DNA of 48,939 nucleotides from positions 1 to 48,939 of the forward strand of contig QZIJ01000048.1 in NCBI GenBank assembly GCA_003598975.1, in the 5' to 3' direction. Shown one piece after another: positions 13,721 through 27,685 of this stretch (within the stretch, counting starts at the first letter, position 1; every line of letters starts with the position of its first letter). The notes under the pieces are model-generated. The model was not told where the DNA came from and searched no databases. It saw only the letters and a program-made list of their open reading frames with translations. The position numbers were made by a program, and so were the translations under genes. The stretch comes from Anaerolineaceae bacterium. GTDB taxonomy: Bacteria > Chloroflexota > Anaerolineae > Anaerolineales > Villigracilaceae.

Positions 13721-14052
13721 AACTGAGACCCAGCCGCTAGTTCTCCGAATATTTAATTGTTAATCAGGCGGCATTGTACTCGCGCCAGAGAAGTGAGTCA
13801 AGCCGTAAGTTTAAAAAGTTACCCCGCAAATGCCGTGTGCAACCGGGTTTTGGACCTGCTTTCGCAGGTGGGCTCCAATCGGGAAACGCCGCCTTGGCTC
13901 AGGCCTATCGCGTTATTTCCACGAAGATAAGAGCCCGTTGTGTGGATGTTGGCCCAAAACGTAGTAGTTACATCACGAACACAGCAGGGTATGATTCTTA
14001 TACCATAAACCCAAAGCAGAGGGGAGAGAAAAATTAATTACAATGGTGATGG

Positions 14053-24228: not shown

Positions 24229-25569
24229 TTACGGATACACCCGCTTGATCGTTCTCGGGAATGCAATCGCCTCGCGGACGTGTTCGATGCCGCACATCCA
24301 GGCGGTGACGCGTTCCGTGCCCATCCCAAACCCAGAGTGGGGGACGGAACCAAATTTGCGCAGTTCCAGGTACCACTTGAACGCGGATTCGGGCAAACCC
24401 TCTTTGTGAATGCGCGCCAGAAGCATATCGTGGTCGGACATGCGTTCGGAGCCGCCGCAGATCTCGCCGTAGCCTTCGGGCGCCAGCAGGTCCACGGACT
24501 TGCAGACTTCGGGGCGGCCTGGCCAGGGTTCCATGTAGAACGCCTTGACTGCACTTGGGTAACCATAAACAAACACAGGCTTGTCGTACAGTTTGGTGAT
24601 CTCGGTTTCGTGTGGCGCGCCGAAGTCCATGCCCCATTCGAACTTGAGCAGTTCCTTCTTTTCGGGGTCGGTTTCTTTTTCGTAGAGCTCGATCAGGTGT
24701 TTTGCGGCGTCATCGTAGGACATGCGCGGGAAGGGGGCTTGGATGCTTTCCAGTTTGGAGATGTCACGACCGAGGAATTTCAATTCAGCCATGCGGTCGC
24801 GCAAGACGCGTTGCGCGATGTGCTGGATCATTTGCTCTTCGATTTCCATCATCTGATCGAGGTCGCAGAAGGCTATTTCGGGTTCGAGCATCCAGAACTC
24901 GGTCAGGTGGCGGCGCGTCTTGGACTTTTCCGCGCGGAAGGTGGGACCGAAGCAGTAGACCTTGCCGAAAGCCATGATGGTGGCCTCGCTGTAAAGTTGA
25001 CCCGTTTGTGCGAGGTAGGCTTTGCCTTCATCAAAGTATTCTGTCTCGAAGAGTGTGGTTGTGCCCTCCGCCGCGGCAGGAGTCAGAATCGGCGTGCTCA
25101 TTTCGATGAAGCCGTTGGCATCGAGCCACTCACGCGTTGCCGCCATGACCGTGGCGCGGACACGTAGGATCGCCCACTGACTCTGCATCCGAATCCACAG
25201 GTGACGGTTGTCGAGTGCGAAGTCCACGCCGTGATCTTTGAGCGACATCGGATAGTCCACGTCGGCGGTTTGCACGATCTCGATTTTTTTCACGCCGACC
25301 TCATATCCGCCAGGGACGCCCGGTGCGCGCTTGTCCGCGCGGACGGGACCAGTGATGATCACCGACGATTCCTGCGGCAGGCGCACGAGCTGATCGAACA
25401 CCGCCTCGTCGAGGTCACCTTTAAACGCCACGCACTGGACGAACCCCGTCCCGTCGCGGACGAGCAGGAAGACGAGTTTGCCTTTGTCGGTGCGGTTGTA
25501 GACCCAGCCCTGCACGGTCACTTCCTGGCCTTCGTATTTTGAAATTTCGTCAACGCGGATGATTGGCAT
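24229..25569 (-). CDS. asnS: Asparaginyl-tRNA synthetase
   Basis: Class IIb synthetase that charges tRNA-Asn with asparagine. The N-terminal OB fold (VTVQGWVYNRTDKGKLVFLLVRDG) is followed by the catalytic core: motif 2 in FGPTFRAEKSKTRRHLTEFWMLEPE and motif 3 in GSVPHSGFGMGTERVTAWMCG. The E-FWMLEPE sequence and 446-aa length without a GAD insert distinguish AsnRS from bacterial AspRS. It follows aspS after a 91-base gap containing an AT-rich repeat, on the same strand, and is likely controlled by the attenuator upstream of aspS. Confidence 0.95.
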   Translation of the reverse strand: MPIIRVDEISKYEGQEVTVQGWVYNRTDKGKLVFLLVRDGTGFVQCVAFKGDLDEAVFDQLVRLPQESSVIITGPVRADKRAPGVPGGYEVGVKKIEIVQTADVDYPMSLKDHGVDFALDNRHLWIRMQSQWAILRVRATVMAATREWLDANGFIEMSTPILTPAAAEGTTTLFETEYFDEGKAYLAQTGQLYSEATIMAFGKVYCFGPTFRAEKSKTRRHLTEFWMLEPEIAFCDLDQMMEIEEQMIQHIAQRVLRDRMAELKFLGRDISKLESIQAPFPRMSYDDAAKHLIELYEKETDPEKKELLKFEWGMDFGAPHETEITKLYDKPVFVYGYPSAVKAFYMEPWPGRPEVCKSVDLLAPEGYGEICGGSERMSDHDMLLARIHKEGLPESAFKWYLELRKFGSVPHSGFGMGTERVTAWMCGIEHVREAIAFPRTIKRVYP

Positions 25570-25660: not shown

Positions 25661-27427
25661 TTATTCCACAATCTTGATATGCAATTCCTTCAACTGCTTC
25701 GGCTCGACTTCCGACGGCGCATCGGCCATCACGTCGCGGCCGTTCTGATTCTTCGGGAAGGCGATCACTTCGCGAATGTTGATCTCGTCCGCGAGCAGCA
25801 TGACGAGACGGTCAATCCCAGGCGCCATGCCGCCGTGCGGAGGCGCGCCGTACTCGAACGCTTCGAGCATGTGACCGAATTTCGCCTGAATGTCCTCATC
25901 CTTGTGGCCGAGCATCTGGAATATCTTGTTCTGGATGTCGCGGCGATGGATGCGGATCGAACCCGATGCGACCTCGTATCCGTTACAGACCATATCGTAG
26001 GCGTCTGAGAGAATCGAGCCGGGGTCGGTGTCGAACTTGTCGAGGTCGGCGAGTTGCGGCATGGTGAACGGATGATGCTCCGCGTCCCAGCGCTGTTCCT
26101 CTTCGTTCCACGCGAACATCGGGAAGTCCACCACCCAGGCGAAGGCCATTACATCTTTGTCCGCGAGGTTAAGTTTATCGCGGAAGATGAGACGCAATCC
26201 ACCGAGAACTTTATTGACGACCGGACGCGCGTCCGCGGCGAAGAGGATCAGGTCGCCCTCACCCGCTTTGGTCTGAGTCCGAAGCGCTTCCACTTCGTCC
26301 GGCGTGACGAACTTCGCGGCGGTTCCCTTCGGACCTTCGGCGGTCACGGCCAACGTGGCGAGCCCCTTAGCCCCCAGCGCCTTCGCGGACTCGGTCAGCG
26401 CGTCCACTTCGCGGCGCGACATGTCGGCGCTCTTCGGCGCGACGATGCATTTGACCACGCCGCCCGCCTCCAGCGCGGACTTGAATACTTTGAACTCGCT
26501 TTTTGCGAAGACCTCGCTCACGTCCACGAGTTCCGTGCCGAAGCGCAGGTCGGGTTTGTCGGTGCCATATTTTTCCACGACTTCACGATAGGAAAATTTC
26601 GGCCACGGCGAGGAGAGAAGTTTTTTGTTCGGTGCAACGGCGGGAAGCATGGCGGTGTACAAATCTTCAACCACTTTTAAAACATCGTCGCGATGCACAA
26701 AGGACATTTCGAGATCAAGTTGTGTAAATTCTGGTTGACGATCACCGCGCAGATCTTCATCGCGGAAACAGCGCGCGATCTGGAAATATTTGTCCAAGCC
26801 AGCCACCATGAGCAATTGCTTCAGTTGCTGGGGTGATTGGGGCAGGGCATAAAATTGTCCAGGGTAAATGCGCGAGGGGACGAGATAGTCGCGCGCACCT
26901 TCGGGCGTGGCTTTGAACATGATTGGGGTTTCGACCTCGATGAAACCTTCCTTGTCGAGATAGTCACGCATGAACTTGACGACCTTGTGGCGCAGAATCA
27001 TGTTGCGGGTCATGCGTTCGCGGCGTAGGTCGAGATAACGATATTTGAGGCGCGTATTCTCGTCGGGTAGATCGTTTTCGCCGCTGACCATGAAAGGCAG
27101 AGTCTTGGACGGGTTGAGCACGGTGATGTTTTTTGCGATGATCTCGATCTCGCCTGTTTCCATCTTCGGATTTTCCATGCCCGCGGGACGTTTATGCACG
27201 GTCCCCTCGATTTGCAGGACCCACTCGAAGCGCACATTCGCCACCAAATCCAAAACATCTTTCGCCAGGTCTGGATTGATGGTGACCTGGACGATTCCAG
27301 CGCGGTCGCGCAGGTCGAAAAACGCCACGCCGCCGTGGTCGCGTCGACGGTGTACCCAGCCAGCCAGGGTCACGGCCTGACCCGCATGGCTGGCGCGCAA
27401 TTCGCCGCAAGTGTGAGTTCTGTACAT
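25661..27427 (-). CDS. aspS: Aspartyl-tRNA synthetase (non-discriminating signature)
   Basis: A bacterial-type 588-aa AspRS: OB fold with [19 protein letters not shown], class II motif 2 ([18 protein letters not shown]), an inserted GAD domain (about 290-410) and motif 3 region ([16 protein letters not shown]). Residues His31 and Gly83 (RPAGM) match the pair reported to make the Pseudomonas aeruginosa enzyme non-discriminating (able to form Asp-tRNA-Asn), whereas the discriminating E. coli enzyme has Leu and Lys there. Start at 27427 with GGAGG 7 bases upstream. A leader peptide and attenuator lie 110-240 bases upstream. Confidence 0.96.
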
Positions 27428-27439
27428 GGTGCGCCTCCG

Positions 27440-27537
27440 AAATACATTTTTACCACGAAGGACACGAAGGGTCACAAAGAAAGAGGAAGGAAGAAAGAAT
27501 CTTAGCGCTCTTCGCGTGCTTTGCGGTTAATCTCAGA
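27440..27537. repeat. ACCACGAAGGACACGAAGG repeat in the aspS leader
   Basis: ACCACGAAGGACACGAAGG followed by TCACAAAGAAAG and, further on, GCGCTCTTCGCGTGCTTTGCGGTTAA. The two parts are imperfect inverses (CACGAAG.../CTTTGCGGTTAA) and belong to the same family as the copies at 39172-39292. Confidence 0.65.
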
Positions 27538-27574
27538 CAAAATAAATCGCCCTTCGCGGATGCGTCGGGCGATT
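27537..27574 (-). terminator. Intrinsic terminator (attenuator) in the aspS-asnS leader
   Basis: On the minus strand AATCGCCC (27574-27567) pairs with GGGCGATT (27552-27545); an inner CGC/GCG pair closes an AUCC loop. TATTTTGTC... follows: TTTATTTTG including the last stem bases. It lies 20 bases after the leader-peptide stop and 110 bases before aspS. Its 5' arm can alternatively pair with an upstream segment (27618-27610), giving an antiterminator. Confidence 0.82.
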
Positions 27575-27658
27575 GGTGTGACTTGAATTACCTGTCAACC
27601 AGCCATGCTTCGCCCAACGCCGCGGACGGCGTCGTTATCGTTATTGTTGTTGGCGAAG
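27567..27658 (-). promoter_or_regulatory. Mutually exclusive RNA hairpins (attenuation control region)
   Basis: Segment 1, CTTCGCCAAC (27658-27649), pairs with segment 2, GTTGGGCGAAG (27618-27608), by ten base pairs with one bulged G. Segment 2 can instead pair with segment 3: GTTGGGCGA (27618-27610) with TCGCCCGAC (27572-27564), nine pairs including one G-U. Segment 3 otherwise forms the terminator. The Asn/Asp codons sit just after segment 1, so a ribosome stalled there would mask segment 1 and favour the 2:3 antiterminator. The pairings are read directly; the mechanism is inferred by analogy with trp/his/phe attenuators. Confidence 0.75.
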
Positions 27659-27669
27659 TTGGTTTGCAT
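27595..27669 (-). CDS. Asn/Asp-rich leader peptide of the aspS-asnS operon, 24 aa
   Basis: A short frame starting at the ATG at 27669 (MQTN...) and ending with TGA at 27597-27595. Its middle reads FANNNNDNDAV: six Asn and two Asp among the first 14 residues, encoded by AAC AAC AAT AAC GAT AAC GAC. This is a strong enrichment in exactly the two amino acids handled by the downstream synthetases AspRS and AsnRS. TATAAT ends 8 bases before the A of the ATG, so the mRNA probably starts at or next to the AUG and is leaderless. An in-frame ATG three codons earlier overlaps the -10 box and cannot be transcribed from it. Segments 1 and 2 of the attenuator lie within the frame. Not previously recognised by me as an annotated family. 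Confidence 0.78.
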   Translation of the reverse strand: MQTNFANNNNDNDAVRGVGRSMAG

Positions 27670-27676
27670 GGGCGGC

Positions 27677-27685
27677 ATTATAGCA
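27677..27685 (-). promoter_or_regulatory. Extended -10 promoter of the aspS leader
   Basis: TGCTATAAT (27685-27677, minus strand) is a perfect extended -10 element, located immediately behind the patB stop codon. No -35 match is visible, as expected for extended -10 promoters. Predicted start point is 27670-27669, the leader AUG. Confidence 0.7.

Follow-up and report, generated by a model that had tools for sequence, protein, structure and literature searches.

What controls aspS in this Anaerolineales bacterium? In the window (the whole stretch of DNA analysed, 48,939 nt), the gene is preceded on the minus strand by a promoter element, a short reading frame rich in Asn and Asp codons, and a terminator. 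The initial annotation had read these as a ribosome-mediated attenuator in a probable member of the Chloroflexota, and the guess at the phylum was right. With a probability of about 0.92, the element is a ribosome-mediated transcription attenuator of the trp/his/pheST type that responds to how fully tRNA-Asn and tRNA-Asp are charged and regulates aspS, together with asnS where that is the next gene. For comparison, 80 related genomes were searched for aspS, as were GTDB species genomes (Anaerolineales, Chloroflexota; one Candidatus Villigracilaceae).

Anatomy of the aspS upstream region

The element and its two downstream genes are on the minus strand. An extended -10 promoter element, TGCTATAAT (27677-27685), lies 5 nt from 27690, where the aminotransferase gene upstream of it ends; the -10 was confirmed by its coordinates and by the relatives. 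The leader ATG (27669) follows the -10 at a distance of 7 nt and opens a frame of 24 codons, MQTNFANNNNDNDAVRGVGRSMAG, closed by a TGA ending at 27595 (leader gene 27595-27669); the frame and its Asn/Asp core agree with the initial annotation, and its start is probably leaderless. Segment 1, CTTCGCC (27652-27658), is the 5' strand of the protector stem 1:2 and is followed directly by the regulatory codons AAC AAC AAT AAC GAT AAC GAC (N N N N D N D; 27631-27651). Segment 2, GCGTTGGGCGAAG (27608-27620), is the partner of either segment 1 or segment 3, and the inner hairpin of the 1:2 stem, GACGCC/GGCGTT, occupies 27616-27633. A hairpin predicted by folding, GGTTGAC/GTCACACC (27575-27600), contains the leader stop codon and lies within the 2:3 loop. 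Segment 3, AATCGCCCGACGC (27562-27574), serves as the 3' strand of the antiterminator or the 5' strand of the terminator, and segment 4, GGGCGATT (27545-27552), with the U-rich tail TATTTT (27539-27544) completes the intrinsic terminator (27539-27552).

The ten pairs proposed for 1:2 were recovered as a block of 7 contiguous pairs and, across a bulge, AAC:GTT, and the proposed terminator of eight 3:4 pairs, an inner stem (3 pairs) and a U-rich tail was found in place; for 2:3, 11 contiguous pairs were counted instead of the nine first given. The whole element has an MFE of -50.9 kcal/mol (z = -3.5), with 1 of 200 dinucleotide shuffles as good. A consensus terminator scan misses the window terminator because of the internal loop in its stem.

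Downstream, a Shine-Dalgarno (SD) sequence GGAGG (27434-27438) precedes aspS, aspartate--tRNA ligase (25661-27427; NCBIfam NF001750, E 1e-256), and after a gap of 91 nt comes the second gene, asnS, asparagine--tRNA ligase (24229-25569; NCBIfam NF003037, E 2e-156). These are the two synthetase genes named in the initial annotation, and their products, AspRS and AsnRS, match the codons that would be sensed. The gap between terminator and aspS holds dispersed repeats CGCAAAG...CTTCGTGGT at 27451-27530 of the minus strand, with 17 more matches in the same genome, and in other relatives it holds repeats GTCATTGCGAG...CTCGCAATGAC; it seems tolerant of insertions. Elsewhere in the window, a 6S RNA was found at 13817-13993 of the minus strand (Rfam RF00013, 75 bits).

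The pattern TATAAT-N5..22-ATG-N6..30-(RAY)4 has a single site in the 3.94-Mb genome, with 1 match in a backwards-read control. A (RAY)5 version matched in 15 of 121 genomes of the order, again with 1 match in the reversed control; nearly all matches are at aspS, as assigned by coordinates or sequence, and two (G278:C6 and G055:C176) appear unrelated to it.

Evidence for translation of the leader

Runs of at least 5 RAY codons with an upstream -10 were gathered irrespective of frame, giving 85 distinct relatives. In every one of them (85/85), the first ATG after the -10 shares its frame with the run. The run is 5-13 RAY codons long, and a ten-codon window across the relatives contains 452 Asn, 222 Asp, 1 Glu and 1 Lys codons; Asn and Asp interchange freely, and AAT and AAC as well as GAT and GAC are in use. 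Further examples from upstream of the relatives' aspS include MFKNNHFANNNNNNDNDDRWIVGRSFAG. The N- and C-terminal residues of the leaders are unconserved.

The segment-2 core GGGCG was located in 78 leaders. Of these, 66 read segment 2 in frame 0, and their stop lies exactly 18 nt from GGGCG; the other 12 read it in frame +1 and have a stop exactly 14 nt from the core. In these 12 the frame change alters the C-terminus from IVGRSFAG to YRWAKPC and leaves the stop within 4 nt of its usual place. Because the stop position holds through the frame change, what is kept is the place where the ribosome stops and not the C-terminal peptide. This evolutionary pattern argues for a translated leader, a short ORF carrying codons for the regulated amino acids.

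If the RAY repeat were instead an RNA motif, not codons, the element might be a tRNA- or protein-sensing RNA, T-box-like or bound autogenously by AspRS. Such repeats could form a protein-binding array as in TRAP, and some Firmicutes control aspS and asnS by T-boxes (PMC2494555), but the 85 of 85 runs in frame with the start, the stop kept through a frame change, and the lack of any Rfam family at gathering score for the window element and 16 homologous loci make this reading very unlikely. At E<=10, the same sequences gave only weak unrelated matches below gathering and no relevant family. As a specific candidate, the T-box riboswitch was rejected, there being no match to the T-box covariance model.

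A leaderless start of the proposed attenuator would fit most homologues, the -10 lying 7-10 nt from the ATG in 74 of 85 relatives; a few lineages have 16-30 nt there, some of them with an SD-like GAGG. The longer gap with a GAGG-type sequence in L031, L032, L034 and L051 may reflect a change from a leaderless to an SD-led start inside one attenuator family.

Conservation and alternative pairing

Alignment with relatives, suggested earlier as a check, found the Asn/Asp codons and the base pairing conserved. Conservation sets in abruptly at TGTGCTATAAT and is lost beyond the U tail. The promoter TG is present in 82 of the 85 relatives, information is near 0 farther upstream, and no conservation was seen at -35 or farther up. 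A constitutive terminator of the upstream gene, beside a chance short ORF and with aspS driven from elsewhere, would suit a terminator placed between genes and an aminotransferase gene that ends so close to the -10. However, relatives show unrelated sequences 5' of the element but retain the element itself next to aspS, and the codon run, frame and pairing are conserved, which leaves this explanation barely credible.

In a 51-sequence alignment, the helices of the terminator state (1:2, inner and 3:4) are 96.9% paired, against at most 43% in slid registers, and contain 39 double-change cells against 11 expected, with 0 of 500 shuffles as good. Two pairs are changed on both sides in the 1:2 helix (99% of cells paired), two in the 3:4 helix (98.8% paired), and three in the inner hairpin, where the changes are A-U/C-G/G-C and U-A/C-G. 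The 2:3 helix is 98.2% paired, with slid registers again at or below 43%. Inside the window's family it is conserved and not covarying (262-265 of 500 shuffles as good) because there is too little variation within the family, and support for 2:3 therefore depends on a swap test between lineages. When segment 3 was swapped among 17 lineage representatives, with regions marked by hand and lineages not fully independent, the own pairs summed to -371 kcal/mol versus -312.5 kcal/mol for swapped pairs, and 0 of 100,000 permutations was as good. Shuffles of the segment-2 region gave p<=0.01 in 55 of 84 cases, several of the failures being cases in which the script mistook the stop-codon hairpin for the terminator. 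RNAalifold on the full alignment yields 1:2 and 3:4 only, because an alternative pairing cannot be displayed.

The 2:3 antiterminator and the 3:4 terminator are mutually exclusive, and in the window's family the protector stem 1:2 overlaps the leader. In naked-RNA folds from several other families, segment 3 is paired upstream instead of 1:2 giving protection. The invariant core of the element is thus made up of the leader codons, 2:3 and 3:4, and 1:2 stands outside it since it is conserved in the window's family while the naked RNA of other families pairs segment 3 upstream. That the short gene's peptide acts in trans with the RNA structure secondary, as leader peptides such as peTrpL can (PMC7298713), is just as hard to credit as a constitutive terminator, the terminal residues being unconserved and the C-terminus wholly replaced in the 12 frame-changed leaders.

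Ribosome position and proposed mechanism

A ribosome was placed on each codon in turn and the window RNA beyond it was folded, with the footprint edge chosen at 11 nt past the A site. With the ribosome on run codons 7-12, the probability of 2:3 is 0.78-0.97 and that of 3:4 at most 0.17; codon 13 gives an intermediate state, and from codon 14 to the stop 3:4 reaches 0.90-0.96. The Asn/Asp run ends at the point where a ribosome would begin to cover segment 2, in agreement with the initial proposal that the regulatory codons just past segment 1 are placed to release segment 2. Across 97 homologues, counting codons back from the stop, the Asn/Asp share is 0.71-0.94 from -18 to -11 and falls to 0.16 at -10, and this drop in density tracks the onset of the drop in antiterminator pairing. 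Before segment 4 is made, the 5' arm of the terminator is paired upstream with a median of 0.74 when the ribosome is on the run and 0.05 when it is at the stop (97 homologues). Once the RNA is complete, 3:4 prevails at equilibrium in most homologues even when a ribosome occupies the run (median 0.89), and read-through in those homologues must therefore be kinetic and cotranscriptional. The control codons sit where a stall would free segment 2, which a ribosome that has reached the stop would cover.

The anatomy, frame, conservation, mutually exclusive pairing and codon position read from the sequence suggest the following mechanism, which assumes coupling of transcription and translation. Transcription would start at, or a few nt from, the leader ATG. 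With ample charged Asn- and Asp-tRNA, the ribosome would run on to the stop codon, which lies shortly after segment 2, and cover that segment, 3:4 would form, and transcription would stop before aspS. When either charged tRNA is scarce, the ribosome would stall in the Asn/Asp run, beyond segment 1 and immediately before segment 2, and block 1:2; segment 2 would then capture the nascent segment 3, and RNA polymerase would read through, as the predicted response to Asn or Asp limitation. Frame, pairing and codon position all favour the trp/his-type reading put forward in the initial annotation.

Distribution and target gene

The element is not confined to the window and, as judged from the upstream regions, is spread over the order. 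It was found, in some cases weakly, in nine families, namely the window's and eight others (L072/L074, L052/L054, L063/L065, L061/L069, L055/L057, L076, L056 and L041); leaders of L063/L065, L072/L074 and L041 have few Asn/Asp codons. It is absent in f2 (L044, L045, L077), f12 (L066, L067) and L068, where a promoter lies close to the gene with no leader, and among 40 upstream regions of aspS genes outside the order, taken from other families of its class and phylum, no such leader with a terminator was found.

In the window and many relatives asnS lies 3' of aspS, and in others it is elsewhere or was not found. An Asn leader was found at none of 17 stand-alone asnS loci; two of these loci (G032 and G028) lie behind an aspS-like end and probably belong to an operon. 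In this respect the initial annotation is corrected: the element is tied to aspS and not to asnS. It is kept in genomes whose asnS lies far off or was not found, and it is missing from solo asnS genes. Asn codons are kept in the aspS leader where asnS was not found (e.g., G053, G056, G069 and G021), which would fit a non-discriminating AspRS that feeds Asn-tRNA via an amidotransferase.

Two genomes carry pairs of aspS paralogues about 6 kb apart, L042/L025 (G020) and L043/L024 (G039), with an Asn/Asp leader of its own on each copy. L036 and L037 keep the promoter and terminator and have few or no Asn/Asp codons, in genomes where asnS was not found; decay or a changed signal is possible.

Relation to known systems

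The closest parallel in function is E. coli pheST, a synthetase operon attenuated by tRNA charging (PMC4082710, citing Fayat 1983, Springer 1985 and Mechulam 1987). The likeness lies in an aminoacyl-tRNA synthetase operon under leader-peptide attenuation by tRNA charging; pheST has Phe codons and belongs to gammaproteobacteria, whereas the element described here has Asn and Asp codons, a near-leaderless start, two synthetases and a host in the Chloroflexota. The E. coli pheST leader is SD-led. The trp and his attenuators of Proteobacteria and Actinobacteria share the leader codons, the 1:2, 2:3 and 3:4 pairings and the stop past segment 2, but serve biosynthetic operons in other phyla; the likeness is one of layout, and a sequence relation is not expected. 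His-leader attenuators at hisS/hisZ (PMC2965389) and at his operons in Firmicutes (PMC9413887) likewise use a leader peptide instead of a T-box, with synthetase-related targets, and differ in His codons and in their Firmicutes hosts. Leaderless leader peptides are known from trpL of Sinorhizobium meliloti (PMC7298713) and, as cited in PMC13236596, from mycobacterial polycysteine sORFs (Canestrari 2020); going by these accounts, they too have a leader ORF that starts at or near the transcript 5' end, but sense Trp or Cys and belong to other phyla. The aspS/asnS T-boxes of Firmicutes (PMC2494555) share the target genes and tRNA charging as the signal, but bind tRNA directly with no leader peptide, and the present element has no T-box match. 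Dehalococcoides have T-boxes (PMC2494555), and a Shewanella aspS 5'-UTR motif has been labelled merely "tRNA synthetase leader" (PMC2659441).

Neither an Asp/Asn leader-peptide attenuator nor leader-peptide attenuation in Chloroflexota was found in the literature searched, one older survey of synthetase attenuators being outside that search. That survey, by Lopatovskaya, Seliverstov and Lyubetsky in 2010 (PMID 20198868), is the work likeliest to overlap. The mechanism is already known; as far as the literature searched shows, the novelty lies in the Asp/Asn target and in the phylum. The element would add aspS or aspS-asnS to the targets, and Chloroflexota to the phyla, of leader-peptide attenuation. 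Its codon run mixes two amino acids, and its naturally occurring frame-change variants separate coding constraint from RNA constraint. Such leaders are potential sensors for Asn/Asp-tRNA charging and would allow asking how attenuation works from a leaderless or near-leaderless start.

A His-codon counterpart before hisG

A search for His-run patterns led to hisG, a gene named by eye from sequence. A His-rich short frame was present in 20 of 23 hisG upstream regions in a first scan, and in 17 of 23 a run of at least 3 His codons is readable from an ATG, mostly followed by a terminator-like hairpin and U tail. A His leader with a terminator at most Anaerolineales hisG loci examined would be a second attenuator of the same layout. 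Patterns for Phe, Thr and Trp run leaders gave scattered matches at close to control level. It is likely, with this His counterpart taken into account, that the aspS element belongs to an ancient class of attenuators found across the order, with a single leader reading Asn and Asp together and so tracking the AspRS product pool, and that near-leaderless attenuation is standard in Anaerolineales. The hisG leaders include L240 (G002, in the window's genus), L241/L260 (G053) and L245-L267, with MAQRHAHAHHHPISRLAGWCWRVGM and MQLTALHHHHHHFSPFDPGQDRLN as examples.
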